A stretch of 64,000 nucleotides of DNA from contig CALSVI010000005.1 in NCBI GenBank assembly GCA_943840615.1, positions 1-64,000 on the forward strand. The letters run 5' to 3'. A model generated the notes under the pieces. It made no database searches and had not been told where the DNA came from. It saw nothing but the letters and a program-made list of their open reading frames with translations. This DNA comes from an uncultured Luminiphilus sp. (GTDB taxonomy: Bacteria > Pseudomonadota > Gammaproteobacteria > Pseudomonadales > Halieaceae). A program made the position numbers and the translations under genes. This document shows, one piece after another, positions 1 to 35,307 of the stretch. Each line of letters starts with the position of its first letter. Position 1 is the stretch's first letter.

Positions 1-1304
1 GAAGATCATCGACCTGAGTGGTGGCCGGTCGCACCTCCAACACCGGATCCACCAGGCCGGTGGGGCGCACTACCTGCTCGACCGTCTGTCCCGCGTGATC
101 GTTTTCATAAGGCCCGGGTGTCGCTGAGACATAAATCGCTTGCGGGCACAGCCGCTCCCATTCCTCAAATTTGAGGGGCCGATTATCGAGCGCAGAAGGC
201 AGACGAAATCCATATTCCACCAAGGTTTCTTTGCGGCTACGGTCACCGCGATACATGCCTCCGATTTGCGGAATGGTCGCATGGGACTCATCCACCACCA
301 CCAAGCGCATTGTCGGGGATATACTCGAACAAGGTCGGGGGCGCCTCCCCCGGTGCCCGGCCTGACAGATACCGGGAGTAATTCTCGATGCCCTGGCAGT
401 AGCCCAGCTCACGAATCATTTCAACGTCATATCGCGTGCGCTGCTGAAGCCGCTGGGCCTCCAGCAGTTTTTCGAGCTCCTTGAGCTGCTTGACCCGCGC
501 CTCTAACTCGGCTTCGATAAGATCGACTGCACCCAACATGGTGTCGCGGGACGCAACGTAATGTGTTTTGGGGAATATCGTGACGCGCGGTAATCGCTCC
601 TCAATTGCACCCGTTAGCGGGTCGAAGCTGCAGATATTCTCGATTTCTTCATCAAAAAGCTCGACGCGAATGGCCAGCTCACCCGATTCGGCAGGAAAGA
701 TGTCAATGACATCGCCCCTCACGCGGTAGGTGCCGCGCTTAAAGTCGATGTCGTTGCGCACGTACTGCAACTCTGCGAGCTGCCTCAGAACACCGCGCTG
801 ATCGATGATTTCACCCCGCGAGAGATGCATCACCATTTTAAAATAAGACTCGGGATCACCCAGGCCATAAATTGATGACACGGTGGACACGACTAGACAA
901 TCCTCGCGCTCAATAAGCGCTTTGGTTGCGGACAGTCGCATCTGCTCAATGTGGTCGTTTACCTGCGCGTCTTTCTCGATATACGTGTCAGAAGACGGTA
1001 CGTACGCCTCAGGCTGAAAGTAGTCGTAGTAAGAAACGAAATACTCGACCGCATTGTTAGGGAAGAATTCCTTGAATTCACCATAGAGCTGAGCGGCCAG
1101 CGTTTTGTTATGCGCCATCACAATGGTAGGACGCTGTAAGGCCTGTACGACATTGGCCATGGTGAAGGTTTTGCCAGACCCGGTAACACCCAGCAAAGTT
1201 TGTGAGGCCAAGCCCGACTGCACCCCCGCGATCAACTGCTCAATGGCCGCCGGCTGATCGCCGGCAGGCGCGTAAGAGGATTGCAATTCGAACGGTCGGC
1301 TCAC
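1..1304 (-). CDS. uvrB: UvrABC excinuclease subunit B, partial and frameshifted
   Basis: DNA-damage recognition helicase of nucleotide excision repair; it receives lesions from UvrA and recruits UvrC. The N-terminal 337 residues read cleanly from an ATG at 1304, with Walker A GVTGSGKT at about residues 39-46 and the [12 protein letters not shown] hairpin region. The frame then runs into a stop at 288-290. Shifting by one base near 292-305 restores the family sequence [17 protein letters not shown] and stays open to position 1, ending in PATTQVDDL. The lesion is a single extra base beside a GGT-repeat tract. The C-terminal third lies outside the window. UvrB is rarely lost, so a sequence error is more likely than a true pseudogene. 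Confidence 0.95.
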
Positions 1305-1375
1305 GGCAGTTGGTGTCTGGCAAAAGAGTAAGGATAACGGATCTTGAACTTTGGCGAGATTTACTCGATCCGCGG

Positions 1376-1405
1376 TTGACTGCCCGAAAACGGCCTGTGT
1401 ACACT
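1376..1405 (+). promoter_or_regulatory. Sigma-70-type promoter of tRNA-Asn
   Basis: TTGACT at 1376-1381 and TACACT at 1400-1405 are separated by 18 bases. The predicted start would be about 15 bases before the tRNA 5' end. Assigned by similarity to the consensus and by position only. Confidence 0.55.
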
Positions 1406-1427
1406 TCGCTCCTCTTTGAGAGACCCT

Positions 1428-1503
1428 TCCGTCTTAGCTCAGTTGGTAGAGCAGCTGACTGTTAATCAGCGGGTCGCTGGTTCGAGCCCAGCAGACGGAG
1501 CCA
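1428..1503 (+). tRNA. tRNA-Asn (GTT)
   Basis: A 76-base cloverleaf. The acceptor strand TCCGTCT pairs with AGACGGA, followed by discriminator G and an encoded CCA. The D-arm reads AGCTCAGTTGGTAGAGC, the anticodon loop CTGTTAA carries GTT at 1461-1463, and the T-loop is TTCGAGC. It has its own promoter upstream and a terminator downstream, so it is probably a single-gene transcript. A tRNA-Asn gene next to uvrB fits the backbone synteny described in the summary. Confidence 0.98.
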
Positions 1504-1510
1504 AATACTC

Positions 1511-1537
1511 AAAAGCCGCACCCCGTGCGGCTTTTTT
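1511..1537 (+). terminator. Intrinsic terminator after tRNA-Asn
   Basis: A perfect 7-bp stem, GCCGCAC (1515-1521) with GTGCGGC (1525-1531), has a CCC loop and is followed directly by six T. It lies eight bases after the tRNA CCA end. Confidence 0.93.
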
Positions 1538-1596
1538 ATGGCCGTTAAGTTTATGATCGGTATGGTTGTGTCCGCAGATCTGGATACGTGAGCTGA

Positions 1597-2367
1597 ATGA
1601 GAAGAGAAAGACGTATTGGCCAAATACTGACTCTGTCTGGACTGATGTGCATCAGCCAAGTCAGTCTCACGGCGCCACTTTGGCGTGACTTCAGTGGCAC
1701 TTATGTCGCGGGCAATGGCTTCACGCTTGACCCTGATAAGCAGCAGACCGTTACCCTTGAGCACGCTGCAGGGTATAGCTGGGGAGACACTTTTACGTAC
1801 CTCGATACCACCTTCTTTCGGGGCGATGAACGCGCTTACTCACTGTTTGGGGAGACGGCCGCGCGCTGGTCTCTCACTGATTCCGATCAAGACAGGTCAA
1901 ATCAAGCCGTGACGGATGTGCTCATCTCTGCGAGCCTCGAGTTTGGCTCCGGTACGGTCGAAACCTTCACGCTCGGACCCTCAGTCGATCTCAACGTAGC
2001 TGGCTTTGATTATCTCCACCTGGGCCTGATGCGCAGAGAAAGCGTGAACCGAAGCGGATTTAACAACAGCGACGGTTGGCAATTTGTACCCACCTGGTCG
2101 CTGACCATTCCAACGGGCCGCTCAGAATGGGTGATCGATGGATTCGCGAAATGGATCTTCGCGACAGATCACAGCGACTACCACCCCAACTTTCAGTTCA
2201 ATCCGCAAATCAAATACAACGTCGGCAAGCACCTATCTGGACCGGACACGCGTATTTACTTGGGAATTGAATATTACTACTGGTCGAACAAGTACGGCGT
2301 GAAAAGCTCATCCGCCGTAGACAGTGACCAGCACGCCGTCAGCTTTCTGGCCAAGTACCATTTTTAA
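1597..2367 (+). CDS. Tsx-like outer-membrane nucleoside channel
   Basis: A 256-residue exported protein with a hydrophobic leader (about residues 8-26, cleavage near LTAP). It is followed by alternating amphipathic beta-strand sequence rich in Trp, Tyr and Gly, and ends in YHF, the terminal aromatic signature read by the BAM complex. The sequence resembles the Tsx/OmpK channel family, which takes up nucleosides or related solutes across the outer membrane: an early DTFTYLD motif, later FAKWIFATD and a C-terminal YYYWSNKYG segment. It is monocistronic and convergent with the next gene. The substrate cannot be read from sequence. Confidence 0.8.
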   Translation: MRRERRIGQILTLSGLMCISQVSLTAPLWRDFSGTYVAGNGFTLDPDKQQTVTLEHAAGYSWGDTFTYLDTTFFRGDERAYSLFGETAARWSLTDSDQDRSNQAVTDVLISASLEFGSGTVETFTLGPSVDLNVAGFDYLHLGLMRRESVNRSGFNNSDGWQFVPTWSLTIPTGRSEWVIDGFAKWIFATDHSDYHPNFQFNPQIKYNVGKHLSGPDTRIYLGIEYYYWSNKYGVKSSSAVDSDQHAVSFLAKYHF

Positions 2368-2368
2368 A

Positions 2369-2388
2369 CCTGAGGCTTAGGCCTCAGG
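2369..2388. terminator. Possible bidirectional hairpin between convergent genes
   Basis: CCTGAGGC (2369-2376) and GCCTCAGG (2381-2388) form an 8-bp stem with a 4-base loop, between the ends of the Tsx-like gene and its convergent neighbour. The loop contains the stop codon of the minus-strand gene. There is no strong T tract on either side, so termination efficiency is uncertain. Confidence 0.45.
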
Positions 2389-2886
2389 CTCGTCTGACAA
2401 AGCATCTTCATTGGTTTCCGGGTCTTCAGCGTTTTCGCAAGCGGCGGCGGGCTCAACCTCGATCTCACCCGTGGCCTCCCAGGTGGGGACCTTGTCGTCA
2501 AAGCCGGTGTATCGGAGCGTGGCGTCGCCCTTCAGCACCACCTGCAGCGAGCGTCGGCGAATTTCTTTCTCGCCCCCAGCGGCCGAAATACTGAACGTCT
2601 CCTTCGGCCGGAAAAGGAATACCTGCACCGGCTTACCCACAGCCAGATCCTTATCAGCGCCTTTGTCAGACGCAAAAACACTGCCGAGGTAGGCCTTGGC
2701 GCCGGGAATATCGTTGTAACCCGGGCAGCCTTCACTGGCATCGAAAAATTTAAACTTGCTGTTAAAGGCGCCGCCTTCGATGGAGACTCGCAGCTTAGCG
2801 GTCTCCGCAAAAACAGTCATGCTGGTCATCGCTAAAACGACAATGACGCCTGCACTCAACCCACCAACCATTCTTTTCACTTTCAT
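2377..2886 (-). CDS. Exported protein of unknown function with acidic tail
   Basis: About 169 residues. The chosen ATG at 2886 has GGGAG a few bases upstream, whereas the longer start two codons earlier overlaps that site. A lipophilic leader of about 25 residues ends in VFAE, a typical signal-peptidase I site. The mature part has a pair of cysteines far apart (near EGCPGYND and AAACENAED) that could form a disulfide. The last 20 residues are strongly acidic. I do not recognise the family. It is probably a periplasmic or secreted small domain and its function is not inferable. Confidence 0.6.
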   Translation of the reverse strand: MKVKRMVGGLSAGVIVVLAMTSMTVFAETAKLRVSIEGGAFNSKFKFFDASEGCPGYNDIPGAKAYLGSVFASDKGADKDLAVGKPVQVFLFRPKETFSISAAGGEKEIRRRSLQVVLKGDATLRYTGFDDKVPTWEATGEIEVEPAAACENAEDPETNEDALSDEPEA

Positions 2887-3088
2887 ACCCACTCCCTACC
2901 ATCTCACTCTGCCGATGCAAGTTTACTTAAGCGCGCATAGTTAGAAAATCTGTTTTCAGCGTTCGCCTACTCTCAATAACGCGTGTCACCTTCCCAGCTT
3001 TAGCCCTATTTTTAAGAAGCGCATTTCGCGCCAACACGGCTATCGGTAGACTATTCACCTACTGAAACACTACGGCGAGGAGCGCTTC

Positions 3089-3427
3089 ATGACGACTATT
3101 TCGTGGCAAGAATTTGAGCAGGTAGACCTGCGGGTCGGCTCCATTGTTACCGCAGAAGTCTTTTCTGAGGCCCGCCGACCCGCCTTCATCCTGCACGTGG
3201 ATTTCGGTGCGGACATCGGTGTTTTGAAATCGAGCGCGCAGGTCACCGACCTGTACCAACCTGACGAGTTAGTGGGTCAGCAGGTCATTGCCGTGGTGAA
3301 CTTCCCGCCCAAACAAATTGGCCCAATCCAATCCCAATGTTTGATTACGGGTTTTCCGCAAGCCGATGGGTCTGTGGTGTTGATTCAGCCGGAAAGACCG
3401 GTAGCAAATGGTTTGAAGCTCGCGTAA
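3089..3427 (+). CDS. csaA: CsaA-like tRNA-binding (OB-fold) protein
   Basis: A 112-residue protein that is a single tRNA-binding domain of the EMAP-II/Trbp111 type: WQEFEQVDLRVGSIV near the N-terminus, the SSAQVTDLY segment in the middle and QPERPVANGLKLA at the end. CsaA proteins of this length act as dimeric chaperone-like or tRNA-binding proteins in the cytoplasm. The start is supported by GAGGAG eight bases upstream. It stands alone, convergent with the minus-strand genes that follow. Confidence 0.9.
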   Translation: MTTISWQEFEQVDLRVGSIVTAEVFSEARRPAFILHVDFGADIGVLKSSAQVTDLYQPDELVGQQVIAVVNFPPKQIGPIQSQCLITGFPQADGSVVLIQPERPVANGLKLA

Positions 3428-25559: not shown

Positions 25560-26480
25560 TCAGCCCCGCTTCTTTACAGCTAGCTGTTGATTTGTGCAGG
25601 CAATGATGTCCAGGTTGTCCCTATAAAAATTCAGGAACGCAACGATTCCGGGTGCGGGGTTATTGAAATAATCCGAGCTTTGCCTCCAAGTCAAATCGTC
25701 AAAAACGAGGATCCCGTGTTGCTCGAGCGACAAAAAAGAATTCACAGCATCTTTCAGCACATTCTGAGATTTATGTGAGCCGTCTATATAGATAAAATCA
25801 AAGCGGCCACGATTGATTTGACTCGCAAAATATTCGTCTGATGTGCCTTGAAACTCTTCGACCTTTTCTTTTTGCTTAGCCAGATTCTCCTGAAAAGTCT
25901 GGCGGCCGCTTAGCGCTAAGTCTTCGCGATGTCCGTTTTCAGGTGAGCCTTTTGTTTCCCACGTGTCGATACACGTCAAGCTCGCATTCGGGAGCTCCGT
26001 CAACAGGAACAGAGCGGAGAGGCCTTGCCAGCTTCCGATCTCGAGGCAATTCAGTCGTGGCCTGAGATATAGGCCCTCAGAATGAAAGATCATCACCCAC
26101 AGCGGAATTTTTTTTGTGAACCAATCGGTGTCAAATCTCCCTTGCCGCATTCGCTTCATGAAGGCTTTGCGGATGGGAGTCGATCGTTGAAGGGCGGCCG
26201 ATTCATTAAGTAATCGTGTCGTCTCAATGTGGCGCTTCAAGATATGAATAGTTAGTGCGGCTCCGCATCCGCATGTTGACAACCATTGGCTTGTTCTAAT
26301 TGCAGATATAAGGTCTGGCCTGCTGATAGAGAAGCCCCTCGCTATCAATGATTGCGAAGTAGCCCGTAGCTTGCTGCGACTGCTCCGGAGCTTATCTTGA
26401 GCCCACGTGCCAAACCTCGCCACCGATGAGTTTGCTACCGCCTCTAATCCGCCTTCCCCCAGGCTTTGTCGACGCTCCAC
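25560..26480 (-). CDS. Class I SAM-dependent methyltransferase (Methyltransf_24 type)
   Basis: 306 residues. The N-terminal 90 residues are poorly ordered, and the true start may be further in. The Rossmann core is clear: LNCLEIGSWQGLSALFLL (motif I), SLTCIDTWE, FDFIYIDGSHKSQNVLKDA and GILVFDDLTWR, the pattern of the cephalosporin-hydroxylase/Methyltransf_24 group common in glycan clusters. It lies downstream of the GT92-like gene on the same strand (94-base gap) and is probably cotranscribed. Substrate unknown. Confidence 0.75.
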   Translation of the reverse strand: MERRQSLGEGGLEAVANSSVARFGTWAQDKLRSSRSKLRATSQSLIARGFSISRPDLISAIRTSQWLSTCGCGAALTIHILKRHIETTRLLNESAALQRSTPIRKAFMKRMRQGRFDTDWFTKKIPLWVMIFHSEGLYLRPRLNCLEIGSWQGLSALFLLTELPNASLTCIDTWETKGSPENGHREDLALSGRQTFQENLAKQKEKVEEFQGTSDEYFASQINRGRFDFIYIDGSHKSQNVLKDAVNSFLSLEQHGILVFDDLTWRQSSDYFNNPAPGIVAFLNFYRDNLDIIACTNQQLAVKKRG

Positions 26481-26574
26481 TTTTTGTTGCAGTGTCTTGT
26501 CTACGATCTCTGAGTGATCTGACGCTAAGAATTCAGAAAGGGAAACATTTCGATAGAAGGCGTTGGAACGGATT

Positions 26575-27299
26575 TTATATTTTGCCGCCGCAACTGAGGT
26601 CAGCCTGTAATGGTGACAAATTAAGATACTGCGGCGTTATGTTGTGTTCTCTTAGATCATGGAAATATGCGTCGAGGTCGGCGGTTTCTCCTGTCACGCT
26701 GTCGACCACTTTGAGCGGATTCACGAGGGGTCTCATGGGTCTATGGTCGTTAAAAAGCACAAAGAATCTAGGCTGGAAGATGCACTTAACTTCTATCCTA
26801 TCCAACCTACATCGGAACTTGGTATTGGGATGGGGGGTGAGCGATGTTGTGGTTCCAGCGCGTGACGAGCTCTTTTCTGACGCTCTCAGGATTTTCTGCG
26901 CGACCGTCCGCAAGACATCATAATCCAAGGAACCTTTACACAATGGACATTGTGAAAAGTATTGGTAAGTTCCCAGCGTATCGTTTTGTCTGGGCGCAAC
27001 CTAGAAGTAATAAACTCGTCAACATCACAGAATAGCAGCCACTTAGTTTGCTGTCTCAAGTCTTGGTAAATTCGATCGATTTCCTCTGAATAGAATTTAT
27101 TGGGCCCGAGGCCGCCGAGCGGGTACAACACAGAAACATGTTTCGGCATTCCCCGGTAAACGGCGGTATCCTCGCTCGCGTCGTCGATGATAACAATCCG
27201 ATCAGCGCCCTCTTCGGTGTAATGATTTACCCATTCCCGCACAAACGGTTCATCTTTACTTCGTGCAAGCACTGTGAGAAAAAATTGGGGCTCTGTCAT
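26575..27299 (-). CDS. Glycosyltransferase family 92-like protein, two frameshifts
   Basis: About 240 residues. It begins FFLTVLARSKDEPFVREWV, the typical start of DUF23/GT92-type glycosyltransferases, then DRIVIIDDASED and the DxD-like segment WLLFCDVDEFI. An extra base near 26903-26909 and another in the G6 run 26832-26837 break the frame. Corrected, it continues GRAENPESVRKELVTRWNHN, then HPNTKFRCRLDRIEVK and a C-terminal domain with HDLREHNITPQYLNL. Probably a cytoplasmic surface-glycan enzyme; the sugar is unknown. Confidence 0.75.
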
Positions 27300-27603
27300 T
27301 GCTTTTGGGCCTCAAACATAACGGGCGCGACGTCGCCTTCTTGAATCGGAGCGTTCTCTGGCTTTTACAAGTCCGCCATTTGATTCACAGGCGCACAGCG
27401 GTTGTCAACATTGTGTGGCAGTTTTCATTTCGCCGGCATATCAACACTCGCGGAAGCCTCTAATGCGCTCGCATCTGAGGTCTATATAGATCGTGAGCAC
27501 ACGTTACTGAGGTAACAGGGGCGTTGGCAGTGAATCGCCCTAGTCAGGGTATATTAAACCTCCACAATCCGATATTTTGTTTCTTTCACAAAAGACACAG
27601 ACC
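27300..27603. other. Divergent gap, no gene seen
   Basis: About 300 bases between the start of the GT92-like gene (minus) and the sulfotransferase-GT4 gene (plus). It should hold both promoters, but no convincing -35/-10 pair was recognised. No stable hairpin or repeat was noticed. Confidence 0.4.
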
Positions 27604-29655
27604 ATGTTCATTTCAGAGAAACATAGATTCGTTTTTTTCGAGGTGCCGAGAACGGGCAGCCGCTCAATCAGTGATGTGCTGGCGCGATTTGATCCCGACT
27701 CGTCGACAGCGGTCAGACGCGAGAGTGATGGTTCCCATATTGACTATCACAACTTCTCTCTCGGCGAATTGAAAGACTCAAACTATAAAGTAATTGCAAC
27801 GCATCGAAACCCTTACGAGCGGCTTTGGTCCTTCTGGAAGCACCGTCATAATAGAGGGTAACCCCGAAATTTTCAAAATGATAAGTTGGCCGACCTATGT
27901 GGATTGGGTCTGTAGCCCTGAGGTAGTGCCAGAATTGCAGGGCGCATTTGCAAGGACATCCCGATTACTGAAATGCTCGACGCAGATCGAACCGACTTCT
28001 GGTTGGACTTCGCACGTTTAGATCAAAGTTGGCTGGATCTCTCCGCGTTTCTTAGGGTCACCCTGCCTGCATTGCCAAAGCTAAATGCATCTTCCGCTAC
28101 GCTTTCACCTCCGGCGGCTTACACGGAGACGATAGCAGCACGGATAAGCGAGCGATTTGACAAAGATTTCGAGTTCTTTGGTTATGATCGTGATAGTTGG
28201 AAGGCTGTCGGCCCAACTACTCAGATCAGCAAAAACAAAGCCGCTGGCCAGATGCCGCACGTGATCGCGGGGAAGAAAAAAGTGGCTGTTTTGACTCATT
28301 TTGTTCGATACAGCCCCGCTTACTCCCTTCAGAGAGTGGTTCTAGATCAGTTGGCAATGCTTTCGAAAAATGGGTACGAGCCAACGTTGCTGGTAATGGC
28401 CTCTGAAGACTGGGAGCAACCGGCAGATTTCTTTGCAGATCCAAGAGTACAGGTGGTGCAATATCCGAAAATAAAATGGATTAATGCAGAGGACGAAGAG
28501 GACGCTTTTTTTTCAGATGTTGATCAAGTTGCTATCGCTTTAGAGGCAGCGCTTGAGAATATCGATGTGGTCTTGACCCACGATCTCATATACGTGCCGA
28601 GGCTAATGAAGTTGTGCCTTGCTGCCAGGAGGGTTGCCGATAGAAATCCGAAACTAAAATGGCTTCATTGGATTCATTCAGCTACTAGCCCCACTCAACT
28701 TAAGAGAGAGGGGATAGCCAAGTTGCTCTTTAAAGATTTGCTGGCAAAGCAATGGCCGGGTAGTTATCCCGTGTTTTTTAATAGCATGTCCAGGTCGCGG
28801 ATAGCACAGAATTTCTCATATGATGAGTCGGCGGTGAAAGTTATCCCGCACCCTACAAACATCAGTGACTTTTTCTCATTGTCCCCGCTGGCAACGCGGT
28901 TATACGAGGAAAAGCACTTGTACCAAGCAGATTTCGTGACCACAGTGCCAGCGAGGTTAGATCGTGGGAAGCAAGTTGAGTGGGTCATTCGGATATTAGC
29001 TTGCCTTAAATCGCTGGGAAATAGCGTTCGTGTTTTGGTGATGGACTTTCACTCTCAGAGCGCGGAAAAAAATGGTTATCGACAGGATTTGAAGGCGCTC
29101 GCCATAGAGTGGGGGTTGGTGGATTCTGACATCACATTCCTGTCTGAATTTGATGATAACGTTAGAAGCGAAGCCCCCCATTCTTTAGTGCGAGAGCTGC
29201 TCTTACTTTCAACTGTGTATATTCAACCCAGCCGGTCAGAAAGCTATTCGCTGAGTGCGCAAGAGGCGGCAATATGCGGAAACCTGCTGGTCCTGAATGA
29301 TGATTTTCCGCCGTTGAGGGAGATCTTTGGTGAGCAGGCGCTTTACTGCCAGTTCTCCTCAAATATCGACAGAATCCAATTGTTAGACGGTGTTACTGAG
29401 TTGACTATACAAGCGGTGGAGTTTCAGCAACGGCCCACCGGCTATCCCGACAACACGATATCTTATATCGATGGGAGCTGGTGGGTAGATGGATTTGCCT
29501 GCCATGCCTTCTCGATCGCACAACGAATCACACATCAATTCTCAACAAACATAGTGCTGAAACAGCGCCAAGAGCGGTTACGGGACCGTAATATTTTCAG
29601 TGTATTTTCGCAGCATTTAGAGCCTCTGATCGAGGCCGTCAGTACCGATCCGTAG
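27604..29655 (+). CDS. Sulfotransferase-like / GT4 glycosyltransferase fusion, two frameshifts
   Basis: About 684 residues from the ATG at 27604 (a TTG at 27577 is in frame). The N-terminal 190 residues are a sulfotransferase-like domain with a PAPS 5'-phosphate loop FFEVPRTGSRSISDV and a 3'-phosphate segment ATHRNPYERLWSFW. An extra base in GGG 27856-27858 and a missing A near 27952 shift the frame out and back. Between them it reads GNPEIFKMISWPTYVDWV. The rest is a GT-B fold GT4 glycosyltransferase with VVLTHDLIYVPRL, ATVPARLDRGKQVEWVIRIL-like donor-domain sequence and IQPSRSESYSLSAQEA. One protein could transfer and sulfate a sugar. Confidence 0.75.
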
Positions 29656-29663
29656 TTCTAGCC

Positions 29664-30080
29664 TTAGATAATAATTGTGGGGGCTGTTGTCGTGCTGGTG
29701 CTAAATGTAGACGTGCTGAGCCCAAATGTAGAGGTGCTGAGGCCAGACGTAGAGGTGCTGAGCCCAGACGTAGAGGTGCTGAAGCCAGACGTAGTGGTGC
29801 TGGAGCCAGACGTAGTGGTGCTGGAGCCAGACGTAGTGGTGCTGGAGCCAGACGCAGTGGTGGTTGTCGTAGGTGAGAGAGGGCCACTGGCCTGCGCGTG
29901 AGCGGGCAACACAACAGTGTTCACTACAGGGCGGACCCACAGGGGAGAGCTCGCTACCAAACCAGTGCCCAACGCAGCACGCTCGAGCAGTTTCCGTCGG
30001 GCTCTCTCTTTTTTGTCTAGTGAGCCAGAAGGCTCTTCAGCACTTGGTTCATTCCCAAGGGCATCGTTATCGTCGCTCAT
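29664..30080 (-). CDS. Ser/Thr heptad-repeat protein, candidate substrate of the PqqD/HPr-kinase set
   Basis: 138 residues. The N-terminal 60 are ordered and charged (EEPSGSLDKKERARRKLLE), then AALGTGLVASSPLWVRPVV and NTVVLPAHAQ. From memory, a short 'P-V-V/I-T-x-x-x-LPAHA' block recurs in small proteins beside PqqD-like genes. The C-terminal half is low-complexity heptads SGSSTTT, changing to SGLSTST, with over half Ser plus Thr, ending TIII. It is the last gene of the operon (66 bases after the HPr-kinase-like gene) and convergent with the fusion glycosyltransferase. Not a known family. The frame was chosen over others open in the repeat because only it has a sensible N-terminus. Confidence 0.65.
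   Translation of the reverse strand: MSDDNDALGNEPSAEEPSGSLDKKERARRKLLERAALGTGLVASSPLWVRPVVNTVVLPAHAQASGPLSPTTTTTASGSSTTTSGSSTTTSGSSTTTSGFSTSTSGLSTSTSGLSTSTFGLSTSTFSTSTTTAPTIII
29707..29862. repeat. 21-bp tandem repeat array
   Basis: Seven full 21-base units start at 29707, 29728, 29749, 29770, 29791, 29812 and 29833, with a partial eighth. The last three full units are identical (GTAGTGGTGCTGGAGCCAGAC) apart from their edges. On the minus strand they encode Ser/Thr heptads. The 21-base period keeps all frames open on both strands, so copy number can change without a frameshift. Confidence 0.92.
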
Positions 30081-30146
30081 CGTTTACTCTTCGCGATGTT
30101 CAGGCGCCTTACGATACGAGGCTATGCGAAATGAGTCAACGGTAGT

Positions 30147-31001
30147 TTAACGCACTGCGTCGGCGCTTACGGTCAGCAGTCCTTTAAGGCGTTCTGCAAG
30201 CTGCTTGGGTAGCATCTCGCAGCCGCCAAACGTCAGTGCATAGCTCTGCGATGTTCGCGCGAGCCTCATCAGTGCGGGAAAGCCGTGATCCTCCATGTTG
30301 CGTGCATTGATATGGTTTTTTATCAGGGTGAGGCCAGCGTCGGTTGAACTGATAGGTGCTAGCTGCAATGGCTCCCCTTGCTTAAAATGAGGGAACAGAA
30401 GAATGCCGTGGTCATGTCTTGCCGACGGACTGACTTGGCCACCAATCGACTTAATTGGGACCACGTTGCACTGAACTCCGTCGAATACATCAGCATCGGC
30501 TTCAAGTAAGCTCTCTATAGCACCCCAACCGCGAGTTTTGATGTGGATCGGTCGCGAAATCCCATCAACCTGCTGTTGCTTGTCTATCAGGACCATCTCA
30601 TCCGTGATGTAATCGAATCCGTGTGCTACGAGCCAAGTCGTCAAGGAGCTTTTCCCAGAGCCGCTGACTGCCGGCATGACAATGGCTCTTCCTTTGAAGC
30701 TCACTGCCGCGGCATGCAAACAATGTTGGGTTTCAATAAGGCCGGCAAGCCGTGACATTAAGCGGTCAGTGAGTTGATAAATGAGTCCGCCTGCTGTTTT
30801 GATCTTCCACGTTCTGTCCGCATCGTGATCATATAATTCCCATTGATCGTGTGATCCGCTCACAAATAATGCGCCGTCGACTTTGTGTGCATTCGCTTGC
30901 GTGCGGAGGTTTTTCATTGCGACGTCGACCAAAAACTGTGCCGAGGTGGTAGTGGCATGAACTGCGATAGTCTTGTTAGCGCGCTCGATAAACCGGACCA
31001 C
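30147..31001 (-). CDS. HPr-kinase/phosphorylase-like ATPase
   Basis: 284 residues. The C-terminal two thirds resemble the HPr kinase catalytic core: LHAAAVSFKGRAIVMPA leads into the P-loop SGSGKSSL, then FDYITDEMVLID, where the Asp/Glu pair follows the kinase pattern. The N-terminal region is the extra domain seen in 'HprK-related kinase A' proteins. In lasso-peptide clusters such as paeninodin a homologue phosphorylates a Ser of the precursor. It begins four bases after the PqqD-like gene. The natural target here is probably the adjacent Ser/Thr-rich protein; this is inference. Confidence 0.85.
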   Translation of the reverse strand: MVRFIERANKTIAVHATTTSAQFLVDVAMKNLRTQANAHKVDGALFVSGSHDQWELYDHDADRTWKIKTAGGLIYQLTDRLMSRLAGLIETQHCLHAAAVSFKGRAIVMPAVSGSGKSSLTTWLVAHGFDYITDEMVLIDKQQQVDGISRPIHIKTRGWGAIESLLEADADVFDGVQCNVVPIKSIGGQVSPSARHDHGILLFPHFKQGEPLQLAPISSTDAGLTLIKNHINARNMEDHGFPALMRLARTSQSYALTFGGCEMLPKQLAERLKGLLTVSADAVR

Positions 31002-31005
31002 GAGT

Positions 31006-31281
31006 TCAGTGGGTCTTTAGTAGAGCATTATTGGAGAGTAATTCCTGGATGACAGTCTCTACATCGCGCTGAATTACCTCATCTGGCGCTTCGTAAAGCT
31101 CTGTTAACAGCGCGATGATATCGCCAACATCAAGTGATCCATCAAGGAGTTCCCAAATGGCTAGTGAAGATGTGTTCAACTCAAAAGCGCGAGTTGTGAG
31201 CGGGTTATAGACTATTGCACCGTCATCCATATATTCACAAAGGCATTCTGGAGCTCTTGTAAAAGTCTCACTCAAATTCAA
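31006..31281 (-). CDS. PqqD-like RiPP recognition element protein
   Basis: 91 residues, a stand-alone PqqD-type winged-helix domain: DGAIVYNPLTTRAFELNT, then SSLAIWELLDGSLDVGDII and a final helix pair ending NNALLKTH. Such domains bind leader peptides and present them to modifying enzymes. It lies between a nucleotidyltransferase gene (one base upstream) and an HPr-kinase-like gene (four bases downstream), an arrangement that implies one enzyme complex. Confidence 0.85.
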   Translation of the reverse strand: MNLSETFTRAPECLCEYMDDGAIVYNPLTTRAFELNTSSLAIWELLDGSLDVGDIIALLTELYEAPDEVIQRDVETVIQELLSNNALLKTH

Positions 31282-31282
31282 C

Positions 31283-32392
31283 TTAGCCGCCCTGTATTCG
31301 CGATCGTATTCGCCTTATAACCATGACCAGAAGTGTAGCGGGATGCCTGAGGTATTTCACGCCAGTCAGGCTATCCCCGGGTGCAACCTCATAAAAGAGG
31401 TGCAGCCACCAGTCAGAAGGGCAGAGGACTGATCGGATTTTCATCAAGATGGAATCGTGACTGTTAACAATGTCGTAGAAGCTCATAGCGATCTCTCCAA
31501 CACCACTAATCTCTGTGTCATTGAGTTCTCCCAGTAGGTTTTTCAGTGGAAGTGGTAGCGCGACGAGCAGATGCAGGCATCTGAGAGTATTAAGAACATG
31601 TGGGTACTTGCCTGTAATAATTTTCCAATCGATCTCATTAACAAATTTCTGGCTATAGCGGATCACATCAACAACGTTTATGAGCTTCAAAAAAGATCCG
31701 GGATGCCAGCCCTCTAAATGTCGGCACAACTGATGTAGCATCATTTCGTGGCTCAATATGGGTATTTTCAGTTCCCGCCAAGTGACTTCGCTCAGGCCAA
31801 TGTATTCGTCGTAGTAGAGGTTCCCCCTAGTATCTCTAGCAATAGCGTCGTGGTGAATTTCAAGGCTTATATTAAAGCCGTCTGCGAGCACTGTTGCGTT
31901 CGGTAATTGATGAGAGTCGCGGCTATACTTATCAGGATGATCTTTTGGTTGGTTAAAACCTATATTCTGCACGCTCTTCACAATCTCGCTGCGCTGCTCT
32001 TTGCGAACAAGGATGTCGATGTCACGCATAGGTCGGGAAGCATCGTGACAATAAATCATGGGTGTAAGTGCAGTTCCTTTTAACGCCACGAACTGTAGAT
32101 TCCTGTCCCTCAGATCGTCGAAGAGTGTTTGCGCTACTTTATAACGCGCATTTGCGGATGCTTTATGGCGAAGAACCAAAGCATTGAGTTTGGAGATGGC
32201 AGACTTGGGAAGCGAAAAGGAGTGTTGCTTCGATATTCTCAGAACTATCTCAGCGAGGCCGTGGCGCTCCACTGTTCTGATGAAAGGTTTCCAGCTTTTC
32301 ATGGCTGTGATCGAGGATCGGGTATCGTCGAGAACGCTATTACCCAATTCAAGAGATACGAAGAGACGCGCTAAGGCGTACGAATCCGTCAT
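31283..32392 (-). CDS. Nucleotidyltransferase family protein (NTP_transf_5 type)
   Basis: 369 residues. The core motif is FVALKGTALTPMIY followed by RPMRDIDILVRKEQ, the GS/DxD-like nucleotidyltransferase signature of this group, then LEIHHDAIARD and HEMMLHQLCRHLEGWHPGS. Homologues accompany HPr-kinase-like and PqqD-like proteins in lasso-peptide and other peptide-modification loci, where they are thought to add nucleotides or process phosphorylated residues. It is 51 bases downstream of the DUF5672 gene, with TAA almost touching the PqqD-like ATG. Confidence 0.82.
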   Translation of the reverse strand: MTDSYALARLFVSLELGNSVLDDTRSSITAMKSWKPFIRTVERHGLAEIVLRISKQHSFSLPKSAISKLNALVLRHKASANARYKVAQTLFDDLRDRNLQFVALKGTALTPMIYCHDASRPMRDIDILVRKEQRSEIVKSVQNIGFNQPKDHPDKYSRDSHQLPNATVLADGFNISLEIHHDAIARDTRGNLYYDEYIGLSEVTWRELKIPILSHEMMLHQLCRHLEGWHPGSFLKLINVVDVIRYSQKFVNEIDWKIITGKYPHVLNTLRCLHLLVALPLPLKNLLGELNDTEISGVGEIAMSFYDIVNSHDSILMKIRSVLCPSDWWLHLFYEVAPGDSLTGVKYLRHPATLLVMVIRRIRSRIQGG

Positions 32393-32443
32393 AGGGCTCC
32401 GAATCTAATCACCGTCAGGGCTGAGCAAAACCCTCTGCGAAAA

Positions 32444-33370
32444 CTACGCATGCGGTACTCGGCGTGAGAGGTAAGGGAAGATATTTAGTGCCTCAGGACA
32501 GTAAGTAATAAATCGCTTCAGATCGAGATCGTTCAGACGACCAACTTGATGTGCTCCGAAGCTTAAATCGGTAAATCGGCCTTGGGTTGCAAACTTAGCC
32601 CCTTGCTCCATAGAGGCAACCGATGCACCCATCAGATCTAGATGAAAGGCGAAAAACCCGTCTTCACCGCCAGGCCATGAAGCGGCTGAAAAGCGTTCTA
32701 GGCTCTCACGACACTTGGCCCAATCCCGAAGGCTAAAGCCCCCATTTCCCCCGTCTATCACGAGTCCTACGGGACGTTTTCGCGGCCAGGGGGCGCCGAT
32801 ATAGTCGAAATCCATGAAGTCAGTGGCAGCATAGGGAGATTGATTGCAGCAGAGTGAGTCGTGCTGAAAAATCAGCACTTTTTGTCTGCCGATAAGTGCG
32901 TCCCAGAAAAGAGGCGACAGTAAAAGTGCGTTGTATCCGGCGCTTGGCATGCGTTCAGGTAAATCCATAGGTGTTAGTGTCACTGCCCCCGAGGCGACTA
33001 GAGCTTCCAAGCGGCCCTCCATGATGTAACGATGATTCTCTAAACCATGGAATAGTTGGATAGGAATATGGCAGCGGTTGATTATGCTCAATACTGCCTC
33101 CTCTAAGCCGGGAATAGCACGGGTCTCTACAATGACGCCCCACAAAGGTTCTGAATCAGTCCTTTTAAATGACTTGCAAATACTGAGCGCCTCCTCCGCG
33201 AATTGAGCGCGGAACGCTCGCTTCTCTTGGGTTAGTTCGCGTATTTCTAGAGTCAGATGCTCCGCCCGAATTTGGTGTCTGCGAATGTTCAGAGAGCGCG
33301 TTATTTCAGCGGCCCTCAGGGAGGCCGTTGATGGTGAGCTTTCGCTTTGACTCATGCCAAGTAGCTCCAT
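32444..33370 (-). CDS. DUF5672 glycosyltransferase-like protein
   Basis: 308 residues. The N-terminal 80 residues are helical and charged, likely a coiled coil. The remainder fits DUF5672: LFHGLENHRYIMEG, ALIGRQKVLIFQHDSL (with QHD in the DxD place), MDFDYIGAPWP, IDGGNGGFSLRD and GGEDGFFAFHL. It is the first gene of the minus-strand operon leading into the nucleotidyltransferase, PqqD-like and HPr-kinase-like genes, so it may glycosylate the same product. Divergent from a sulfotransferase with a gap of 57 bases. Confidence 0.75.
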   Translation of the reverse strand: MELLGMSQSESSPSTASLRAAEITRSLNIRRHQIRAEHLTLEIRELTQEKRAFRAQFAEEALSICKSFKRTDSEPLWGVIVETRAIPGLEEAVLSIINRCHIPIQLFHGLENHRYIMEGRLEALVASGAVTLTPMDLPERMPSAGYNALLLSPLFWDALIGRQKVLIFQHDSLCCNQSPYAATDFMDFDYIGAPWPRKRPVGLVIDGGNGGFSLRDWAKCRESLERFSAASWPGGEDGFFAFHLDLMGASVASMEQGAKFATQGRFTDLSFGAHQVGRLNDLDLKRFITYCPEALNIFPYLSRRVPHA

Positions 33371-33427
33371 GTCGATGATCCGTATGGTGATAACCTACTC
33401 TCAGGAATCAGCGAAGAGATCAAAAAG

Positions 33428-34051
33428 TTGCCTATCTGCCATGAAAAGAAGTTTATCTTTTTGCACATACCAAAATGTGCGGGGACATCTGTAGAGCGAT
33501 TTTTTAACCTTCAGCGAAGCGAATGTGTCTTCGGATTCGAGCGACAGGGTAACAAGTTATTAACATTGCACCACCTTACAGGACCTGAGCTTTCGAGGTT
33601 TGGGTTAGTGGAACCCAAGAGTGTGCGAGATTACTTTAAGTTCACCATCATTCGAGACCCGTTTGACAGAATGGCATCTGACTATCTTTGGCAGCAGCGC
33701 CATGATCGGCATGGTATCTTTCGTGATCTGGATTTTCCGTCTTATTTGTCATTCGCTAAGCGGATCATTGAGGAACAGGGCTTCCACCAAAAGCCCCATT
33801 TCGATCACTTTAGGCCGATGAGTGATTATTGTGTCCACCAAAATCAGTTATGGGTAGATGACATTTTATTGCTGGATCGCCTCGATGCTGAACTGGCACG
33901 CTTAGCGCCGCGCCTTGGTCAGGTCAATTTAGATCGCGCTAATCGCGGTCCAGATTTCGAATTTTTGCGCACAAGCGCTAATGTCCGGCAAGTATATGAG
34001 CTGTACGAAGCGGACAAGCGCCTATACGACGCCATATCCTCGATTAGCTAG
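33428..34051 (+). CDS. Sulfotransferase family 2-like protein
   Basis: 207 residues. The N-terminal P-loop for PAPS is IFLHIPKCAGTSVERFF, and the 3'-phosphate site segment is FTIIRDPFDRMASDYLW. Later, HFDHFRPMSDYCVH resembles Golgi-type carbohydrate sulfotransferases. The protein is small but complete for the bacterial family. It stands alone on the plus strand inside the island. It probably sulfates a surface glycan. Confidence 0.82.
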   Translation: MPICHEKKFIFLHIPKCAGTSVERFFNLQRSECVFGFERQGNKLLTLHHLTGPELSRFGLVEPKSVRDYFKFTIIRDPFDRMASDYLWQQRHDRHGIFRDLDFPSYLSFAKRIIEEQGFHQKPHFDHFRPMSDYCVHQNQLWVDDILLLDRLDAELARLAPRLGQVNLDRANRGPDFEFLRTSANVRQVYELYEADKRLYDAISSIS

Positions 34052-34416
34052 ATAGAAGACTTAAACTTTTTCATGAGGATCTTGGTCTGAGAATAGTGTG
34101 TCAGCCGATCAACTATTAAGACAGATGGTCTCTAAGTTTGTTAAGCCATGACGACGACCCGAGTCATCCTCAGGCCTGTTTCGATCTCTCGCGCTTCACA
34201 TCTATGGCGGTCCGAGGGTCGATCTCACCCGCTCCCTCGGCATCCTGACTCCGAATCACCCCTGGCGAGGCATGATCACGCCAGCCAAACGTGGCAAAGG
34301 AGTGAAACGAATCGGCAATACTGAAGTTCCCTCACCCACCGAACGGCATGTCGCCCTGTCCTGGGCCCGACTATTCAAGCGCATACTATAAAAGGCTTAC
34401 TGAGGTCTCCCCGATC
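34052..34416. other. Gap holding a transposase remnant, no intact gene
   Basis: Between the sulfotransferase stop and repeat D. The first ~125 bases show nothing recognisable. The rest (34179-34391) is a transposase-like reading frame described separately. Confidence 0.6.
34179..34391 (+). mobile_element. IS91-type transposase C-terminal remnant
   Basis: An open frame of 70 codons without a start reads LGILTPNHPWRGMITPAKRG, then PSPTERHVALSWARLFKRIL and TAA. This resembles the C-terminal part of IS91-like (Y2) transposases, which end in a similar 'TPTERRASMTWAQRLKRVF' pattern before a zinc knuckle. The catalytic part and the zinc knuckle are missing. It ends 26 bases before repeat D. The assignment is from memory of the motif. 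Confidence 0.55.
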
Positions 34417-34461
34417 CTCATAATCCACTGGTCCCAAGTCCAAGTCCTACTGGGCCCACCA
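34417..34461 (+). repeat. tRNA-Ile(CAU)-like 3'-half repeat, copy D
   Basis: CTCATAATCCACTGGTCCCAAG, then TCCAAGTCCTACTGGGCCCACCA. This is the only copy with a complete acceptor strand and CCA, but its variable region and T-stem 5' strand are degenerate. It lies 9078 bases after copy C in the same orientation. The stop and last codons (KWWAQ) of the following minus-strand sulfotransferase are read from its complement. Confidence 0.75.
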
Positions 34462-35307
34462 TTTCAAGCCAAACTCTGGCCGATCAGTGAGCAGTCCCGA
34501 CGGTGTAAAGCACCATACTCCGAATAATTGGCTACCAATATTTGCGGCTAAAGAAATTCGCCCAACACGGCTGGCGATTCCAAGCTCCGGTTCAGAGAGT
34601 TCTCGCATGCCTCTATCTACGCTACTGGTATGGATCGTCTTTGATAAAGTTACTTTTGGGTCTTCTATCCCGTTGCCCCGCTCTACCGAGTTGAATTTCA
34701 TAAGCATTTCAGGTTCGTAACGTTCGCCAACGAACTCTGCAAGCTGGCGAACGAGGCTTTCAGGTTCAGAGACTAATTTCTCGTAAGCTATTTCAATGCT
34801 GAGCTCTGGATTATTTCGACAGTACTCTGCGCCTGCATGTCGAAACTCTTTGTACAGCGAAACTCGATCTGTAAAACCTGTGGGGACGGCTTTCTCAAAC
34901 CCAATTTCAGAGAGCGATGCCAGTGCATCAAGTGGATTGCGCACGATGTGAATAAAAATGAAATTCCCTGGAAGTAGCTGGTGCCACTGCTCTAAGTAGA
35001 GGACGTTTTCCGGGTTTTTATCAGCCCATCGCTTTTTACCAGCTGCTTCAGCAGCCTTCACATGGAATTCCACGAAGGCTCTTCCATATATATCTAGTAA
35101 TGCTTTTTCATTCAGATGATAGGTCTTTGCTGTGCTAAAGAACCGGACATGCTTCAGCGGATCTCGCAAATAGTCACCATAAAAATCCTTAAAAAACTTC
35201 ACTTCCGGCCCGCAATGAATTTGTGTGTGGCTATCAAGTATTCTCCGCACCAAAGAAGTGCCTGACCGGTAAAACCCGCCAACGACGATGGGTAATTTAT
35301 CTTTCAT
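34447..35307 (-). CDS. Sulfotransferase family 3-like protein
   Basis: 286 residues. The PAPS P-loop is GGFYRSGTSLVRRILDSH at the N-terminus, followed by KRWADKNPENVLYL. The 3'-phosphate binding segment is FIHIVRNPLDALASL, and the later SIEIAYEKLVSEPE is typical of Sulfotransfer_1/3 proteins. Its last residues are encoded by repeat D, which suggests its tail was fixed when the repeat arrived. Downstream of the acyl-CoA dehydrogenase on the same strand but 166 bases away, so cotranscription is uncertain. Confidence 0.82.
   Translation of the reverse strand: MKDKLPIVVGGFYRSGTSLVRRILDSHTQIHCGPEVKFFKDFYGDYLRDPLKHVRFFSTAKTYHLNEKALLDIYGRAFVEFHVKAAEAAGKKRWADKNPENVLYLEQWHQLLPGNFIFIHIVRNPLDALASLSEIGFEKAVPTGFTDRVSLYKEFRHAGAEYCRNNPELSIEIAYEKLVSEPESLVRQLAEFVGERYEPEMLMKFNSVERGNGIEDPKVTLSKTIHTSSVDRGMRELSEPELGIASRVGRISLAANIGSQLFGVWCFTPSGLLTDRPEFGLKWWAQ

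Follow-up and report, generated by a model that had tools for sequence, protein, structure and literature searches.

Which substrate is served by a kinase, a PqqD-like protein and a nucleotidyltransferase that are encoded side by side, as they are in lasso-peptide tailoring, at a locus where an exported protein stands in the place of the peptide? The question is raised by five minus-strand genes at positions 29664-33370 of contig CALSVI010000005.1 (assembly GCA_943840615.1) from an uncultured Luminiphilus sp.; the first 64,000 nucleotides of this contig are referred to below as the window. The genes are separated by 51, 1, 4 and 66 bases, and both this close co-directional arrangement and the kinds of encoded domains (DUF5672, NTP_transf_5, PqqD and HPr-kinase-like), as stated in an initial annotation made from the sequence alone, are borne out by the open reading frames (ORFs) and by the Pfam and NCBIfam matches. 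Our analysis suggests that the three enzymes, hereafter the triad, standing beside exported proteins that share one leader with an LPAHA block, represent an as yet undescribed chemical tagging of exported proteins.

The nucleotidyltransferase (31283-32392, minus strand) is a member of NTP_transf_5 (PF14907, E-value 4.3e-30; 105.5 bits against a gathering score of 31.2) and is referred to here as NTP5. It is followed by the predicted leader-binding protein, or RRE (RiPP recognition element; 31006-31281, minus strand), a member of the PqqD family (PF05402, 1.4e-15; 57.8 bits against a gathering score of 23.4) with similarity to TfuB1 (6jx3, E-value 0.007), and by the HprK-like kinase (30147-31001, minus strand), for which the best model, TIGR04352 HprK_rel_A, gave an E-value of 1.3e-24 and 86.8 bits, under its cut-off of 200, and PF07475 (HPr kinase) 2.6e-4 and 21 bits, under its gathering score of 33.3. 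The last gene (29664-30080, minus strand) encodes the candidate substrate, a putatively exported protein of 138 aa, for which the thresholds applied gave no family match in Pfam, NCBIfam, PHROGs or PADLOC.

Linkage of the LPAHA leader to the triad

With the first 65 residues of the 138-aa protein as the query against 369 genomes of the class, strong matches were obtained in six other genomes, several of them with many paralogues. Profile A3, built from 21 leaders and applied to at most 18 candidates per genome, so that misses are possible, reached E-values of 0.001 or lower in ten of the genomes scored (1.1e-17 for the window protein). Matches were clear in the window's own genome, G000 (2.09 Mb, 19 contigs, 82% complete; one copy), and in G399 (10 copies), G494 (6), G287 (5), G337 (3), G267 (2) and G223 (1), and weak and partial in G212, G294 and G405. 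Among the matches listed for the 369 genomes, full-length relatives of NTP5 scoring above 300 bits are found in G000, G267, G287, G337, G399, G441 and G494; thus six genomes possess both LPAHA and NTP5, one LPAHA only, one NTP5 only, and 361 neither (Fisher 1.5e-11), a value uncorrected for phylogeny, which overstates independence because three of the six positive genomes share one genus.

Searches with seven NTP5 queries against 84,980 species, one genome each, identified 206 relatives, of which the best 80, corresponding to 78 loci, were taken; they come from Arenicella, other Gammaproteobacteria, Chloroflexi, Desulfobulbaceae, Lentisphaerae, Verrucomicrobia, Hyphomicrobiales and others. Annotation with profiles placed both a kinase and a PqqD gene no more than 6 kb from NTP5 in 51 of the 78 loci and an LPAHA protein no more than 10 kb away in 31 (within 2.1 kb in 28 of these), with all four kinds of genes in 26 loci. 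The LPAHA-linked loci span Gamma- and Alphaproteobacteria, Desulfobulbaceae, Chloroflexi, Lentisphaerae and Verrucomicrobia; among the 31, L195 is the contig of L055, the leader of which was in the training set, and the pairs L228/L230 and L203/L211 each represent one organism. The number expected by chance in 78 loci, 0.69 (from 107 matches in 176 Mb of 44 genomes, with sizes rounded), is only a guide, because most of the 44 genomes had been chosen for the lack of LPAHA near the triad. The gene order is NTP5-PqqD-HprK in Gammaproteobacteria and PqqD-HprK-NTP5 in Desulfobulbaceae, and therefore the linkage is not a single inherited block.

Whole genomes, 44 in number and holding 45 of the 78 loci (40 with no local LPAHA protein and five with one), were then searched for LPAHA proteins, and 30 of the 44 were found to encode them, in 1 to 15 copies each. 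As a negative control, six genomes with only a distant NTP5, scoring under 120 bits (L231, L233, L235, L236, L237 and L239), yielded none. There are exceptions: no LPAHA protein was found genome-wide for L175, L177, L180, L184, L192 and L194. The genomes of L191 and L214 also lack one, but both encode a twin-arginine leader protein with a PqqD-like domain joined at its N-terminus (L191:7798-8718, L214:6340-7080), and a third such fusion (L206:11069-12217) is found alongside LPAHA in its genome; all three are from Chloroflexi, and the PqqD-domain profile scores are modest (19, 16 and 31 bits for L191, L214 and L206, respectively). These fusions are an argument for pairing PqqD with leaders of this kind.

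In the window's genus an LPAHA protein is present in one of 57 genomes (17 of them with completeness of 90% or more and contamination of 5% or less), namely G000 itself, and no other genus member was matched by the window kinase in the search for relatives; four members of the family carry true TIGR04352 kinases instead. As far as this comparison reaches, i.e. for the LPAHA protein and the kinase, it looks as if the two had arrived or been kept together. Taken with the linkage, these results support the assignment of the triad to the neighboring LPAHA protein, and the LPAHA block is a real conserved domain and not a chance resemblance. A lack of conserved association in related genomes, which would have refuted the initial annotation, is not what these genomes showed, and its core idea holds.

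Or perhaps LPAHA is a lineage-typical twin-arginine signal peptide that merely hitch-hikes with a triad making something else? Many LPAHA genes are indeed remote from the triad (in G399 there are 10 LPAHA genes), and the twin-arginine model TAT_signal_seq (TIGR01409) scored above its cut-off in two of the ten relatives scanned (L055 and L182). We nevertheless regard this as very improbable, given that the linkage recurs across distant phyla, that 361 of the 362 class genomes lacking a strong NTP5 yielded no LPAHA protein, that PqqD-like domains are fused to leader proteins, and that a signal peptide would not explain the invariant hydroxyl residue described below.

The leader, the candidate modification site and the enzymes

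The leader of the window protein (all positions on the minus strand) contains a twin arginine, Arg28-Arg29 (29994-29999), of which the second Arg is invariant in profiles A3 and A6, and a WxxP motif, Trp48 to Pro51 (29928-29939), which we propose as the docking site of the PqqD-like protein. The proposed modification site, Ser65 (29886-29888), is located three residues after AHA (position +3), and residues 66-138 (29667-29885) form a Ser/Thr-rich tail that varies between lineages.

Sixty distinct LPAHA proteins were aligned on PxHA, which served as the anchor and is not counted as evidence. All 60 have Trp at position -14, Pro at -11 and Ser/Thr at +3; the starting set was chosen with a pattern that included W..P, hence Trp and Pro are partly selected. 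The residue at +3 is Ser in 54 proteins and Thr in 6, and Ser/Thr frequencies at the neighboring positions are 5/60 (+1), 51/60 (+2) and 5/60 (+4). Position +3 was absent from the starting pattern but present in the search profile, and therefore a blind test was run, in which the 21 A3 leaders, truncated at AHA, were made into a model and run on 77 loci fetched by NTP5 alone, with L195 excluded. It identified 32 distinct proteins in 30 loci, and all 32 exhibit Ser or Thr at +3 (29 Ser, 3 Thr), with 5, 26 and 1 of 32 at +1, +2 and +4, respectively. Thirty further loci were fetched with profile A6, which includes +3, so that here blindness concerns re-detection only; they added 23 new proteins, all with Ser at +3, and one more with Ala in place of Pro at -11 and Thr at +3.

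The mature parts that follow this leader are diverse: among ten that were scanned, fasciclin domains were detected in two (L262 and L268) and a glycine-rich domain in one (L072), and in the other seven no family was found beyond a signal. One leader, diverse mature parts and a residue that is only Ser or Thr make up the pattern of a modification site, and the invariance of a hydroxyl residue just after the leader suggests that position +3 is such a site.

A second motif, approximately [LI]L[DNG]x[LFM][VI]xxAxA, begins 19-31 residues after LPAHA in L068, L166, L052, L059, L065, L069, L070 and L266, with further copies 168 and 190 residues after LPAHA in two proteins. The pattern, which was picked after it had been seen, gave 10 matches in 8 of 83 LPAHA proteins, with a shuffle mean of 0.02, and is possibly an additional processing site.

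The active sites of both catalytic members of the triad appear intact. In the kinase, Gly116 and Lys117 of the P-loop and the Asp134-Glu135 pair are invariant in 39 sequences, and the predicted structure (predicted local distance difference test, pLDDT, 95.8) finds ATP-dependent phosphoenolpyruvate carboxykinase (PEPCK) as the best match and HprK/P as the next, so that the model places the protein by its fold in the PEPCK/HprK superfamily. In NTP5, the catalytic carboxylates Asp124, Asp126 and Glu178 are invariant in 31 sequences, and the predicted structure (pLDDT 89.6) resembles the minimal nucleotidyltransferases LnuA, MenT and ANT(2''). Matches of NTP5 to 3C proteases were judged to be due to chance. 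As for the PqqD-like protein, RREs of lasso peptides, PqqD and others are described as binding a W/Y/LxxP/L/I sequence (PMC12710340), to which the WxxP of the leader conforms.

Relation to known systems and the proposed mechanism

In line with the initial annotation, which pointed to paeninodin-type loci, the closest biochemical precedent supported by the comparison is the kinase and nucleotidyltransferase pair of the paeninodin/pseudomycoidin lasso peptides. Lasso tailoring (PadeK/PsmK, PsmN and the B1 PqqD-like protein) employs the same three kinds of enzymes and a leader recognition of the Y/WxxP type, which it shares with the LPAHA proteins. PsmK is described as phosphorylating the C-terminal Ser of pseudomycoidin, and PsmN as needed for the addition of one or two hexoses to the phosphorylated Ser; whether PsmN acts as a glycosyltransferase or a nucleotidyltransferase is left open there (PMC9266682). 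The two systems differ in that the substrate of the former is a lasso peptide, modified at its C-terminus, whereas here it would be an exported protein with a twin-arginine leader and with the candidate Ser/Thr next to that leader. In agreement with the initial annotation, neither an asparagine-synthetase-like lasso cyclase nor a B2 protease was identified with Pfam and NCBIfam among the nine window ORFs at 25560-35307, to which this search was limited.

The HPr-rel-A system (TIGR04352 kinase, TIGR04353 PqqD) comprises the same gene trio, but both the window kinase and its PqqD-like protein (21.7 bits against TIGR04353, with a cut-off of 35) score under the curated cut-offs, as do the kinases of L068 and L187 (104.8 and 90 bits); its partner leaders lack LPAHA, and the NCBIfam entries returned name no substrate. 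The best match of the window PqqD-like protein is TIGR04248, i.e. ScmD of the SynChlorMet cassette, which comprises the kinase-like ScmC and the PqqD-like ScmD (37.8 bits, with a cut-off of 100). Because the window set lacks a cyclase among the genes scanned and falls under the HPr-rel-A cut-offs, we consider that it works like lasso tailoring without being a member of either group. RRE-glycosyltransferase fusions (PMC7470986, PMC12710340) resemble the fusions of PqqD with glycosyltransferase family 2 (GT2) in L052 and L055; the main texts of these two papers mention no kinase, nucleotidyltransferase or twin-arginine signal. A different kind of parallel is offered by the PEP-CTERM/exosortase system, in which one short conserved signal is carried by many otherwise unrelated exported proteins. 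LPAHA is likewise a short conserved signal, but it is N-terminal and is accompanied by a kinase and a nucleotidyltransferase, with no exosortase. Searches of the open-access literature yielded no report of substrates of HprK-like/PqqD/nucleotidyltransferase trios outside lasso peptides. The trio itself is known from there, and its use on exported proteins with an LPAHA leader is not known to have been described.

True HPr-rel-A loci were analyzed in the window's order (eight of the 19 other matches of the kinase query, up to 17 kb each). All eight kinases match TIGR04352 above its cut-off (339-427 bits), and a twin-arginine leader protein adjoins the kinase or the PqqD gene in eight of eight, as found by pattern and by eye with no chance control; L127, L129 and L093 encode twin-arginine miniproteins with YxxP- or FxxP-like sequences. 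HPr-rel-A may thus be a sister system with a leader of its own. In L127 (9656-10942; genome G427), the interval between a kinase and a PqqD gene encodes three small proteins with a twin arginine, YxxP and, after the leader, GS.

We consider it fairly probable that the triad is a leader-guided modification cassette for exported proteins. The PqqD-like protein would bind the WxxP of the leader in the cytoplasm and present it to the HprK-like kinase, which would phosphorylate the Ser/Thr at +3 (Ser65 here); NTP5 would then add a nucleotidyl or hexosyl group to cap or extend the phosphate, in the way proposed for PsmN on pseudomycoidin, and the modified protein would be exported by the twin-arginine route. 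With a probable cut after AHA, the modified residue would take position 3 in the mature protein. A single triad could serve many LPAHA proteins in trans, and some lineages show fusions of glycan enzymes to the kinase or to PqqD together with a substrate bearing a mucin-like Ser/Thr tail. We infer docking, phosphorylation, capping, export route and cleavage from the linkage and co-occurrence, the invariant residues, the intact active sites and the predicted folds. The wider proposal, that this is a cross-phylum RRE-directed system which phosphorylates and caps, and perhaps glycosylates, one Ser/Thr at the mature N-terminus, and that HPr-rel-A is its second branch, serving other proteins with twin-arginine leaders, is put forward more tentatively, with somewhat less than even confidence.

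Several points weigh against the cassette. Every chemical step in it rests on inference, and the exact target is uncertain, because a hydroxyl residue, commonly Thr, is frequent at +2 as well. No LPAHA protein was detected in the stretch examined of 47 of the 78 loci; G223 has LPAHA with no kinase or NTP5 detected, and in G441, G523, G526 and G530, which belong to the genome-wide exceptions above, a strong kinase and NTP5 are present with no LPAHA detected. The window protein itself matches no Tat model of Pfam or NCBIfam; the RR is present. Finally, Glycos_transf_2 is not enriched beside triads (4 of 113 near ORFs, hand-picked from 177, and 3 of 113 far ORFs from a random sample of 188), a comparison biased against long transferases because most ORFs longer than about 720 residues were left out; seven long near ORFs scanned separately include three glycan enzymes (L188, L200 and L218).

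Could the kinase and the nucleotidyltransferase instead regulate secretion or attach a carrier reversibly, as quality control or phosphodiester anchoring, with no glycan involved? HprK relatives can be reversible kinases, and the minimal nucleotidyltransferase fold modeled for NTP5 exhibits, besides its resemblance to LnuA, ANT(2'') and MenT, a weak similarity to FKRP (E-value 0.025), an enzyme that transfers ribitol phosphate. The great diversity of the mature parts, fasciclin domains included, is also what a sorting tag would be expected to show. No gene for an anchoring partner was found, however, and the pseudomycoidin precedent points to hexoses, so that we consider this explanation rather doubtful. 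If the proposed cassette is real, environmental bacteria of several phyla would possess a new kind of protein modification that is tied to export, and on the wider, more tentative proposal natural-product tailoring enzymes would have been turned into a general machine for protein sorting or surface tagging; as it stands, the analysis supplies for the trio a specific family of candidate substrates, a proposed docking motif and one residue as the candidate target.

The Ser/Thr-rich tail and glycan enzymes

The initial annotation considered the 138-aa protein with its repeat array to be the natural substrate. The tail it described is there: 50 of the 73 residues 66-138 are Ser or Thr, encoded by a 21-bp tandem repeat (8.1 copies, 29692-29862). 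A 30-residue stretch with at least 50% Ser/Thr is present in just 10 of 83 LPAHA proteins (median Ser+Thr fraction 0.21), and we rejected the tail as a general, defining feature of the substrate. In other words, of the protein expected beside the triad, the LPAHA part recurs and the tail seldom does, and the candidate target shifts from the array to the invariant hydroxyl residue at +3.

It may still be asked whether the tail is the real substrate, on which the kinase, the nucleotidyltransferase and DUF5672 or other glycosyltransferases build a mucin-like glycosylated or phosphorylated structure. Besides the composition of the tail itself, the kinase ORFs speak for this. Among 54 of them (one per locus, NTP5 of at least 140 bits), five are longer than 450 residues, and all five carry glycan enzymes: GT2 in L171; GT2, with GT9 and FkbM under cut-off, in L185; fucose pyrophosphorylase and GHMP kinase in L189; GT2 and GT25 in L195 (scanned as L055); and GT2, GT25 and a sulfotransferase in L223. 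Ser/Thr-rich LPAHA proteins accompany such fusions, with 4 of 6 in fused loci versus 1 of 31 elsewhere, the one being the window (Fisher 0.001, post hoc and hand-tallied). The triad is, however, kept in the absence of a Ser/Thr stretch, and DUF5672 and the neighboring transferases of the window were not matched by blastp, at 1e-4, anywhere in 125 relative loci; we thus hold the tail unlikely to be what the triad acts upon. A glycan link in general has some support from the five fused kinases; DUF5672, a possible glycosylating partner in the initial annotation, is not supported as one by conservation. A glycosyltransferase neighborhood was likewise dropped as a core part of the cassette, given the near and far counts above.

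In L055, two Thr-rich LPAHA genes are preceded (1071-3127) by a GT2-PqqD fusion and by an ORF of 314 aa, which has no Pfam match and by eye resembles ATP-grasp proteins. A fucose kinase/pyrophosphorylase-like enzyme adjoins the kinase in L188 (Lentisphaerae) and lies within the kinase ORF of L189 (Verrucomicrobia).

Plasmid carriage (no match for NTP5, eight weak matches for the kinase) and anti-phage defence (no match in PADLOC) were considered and rejected. The DUF5672 protein (32444-33370, minus strand; PF18922, 3.6e-25) is a co-directional neighbor and was rejected as a conserved partner, together with the other transferases of the window. According to the Pfam scan, the surroundings of the window cassette include, besides DUF5672, one glycosyltransferase and two sulfotransferases. 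By eye, two overlapping minus-strand ORFs in different frames at 26575-27299 resemble one broken glycosyltransferase-like gene, and on the plus strand at 27577-29655 a sulfotransferase-like start leads, with a change of frame, into an ORF for a glycosyltransferase, so that the two may represent a disrupted fusion gene.

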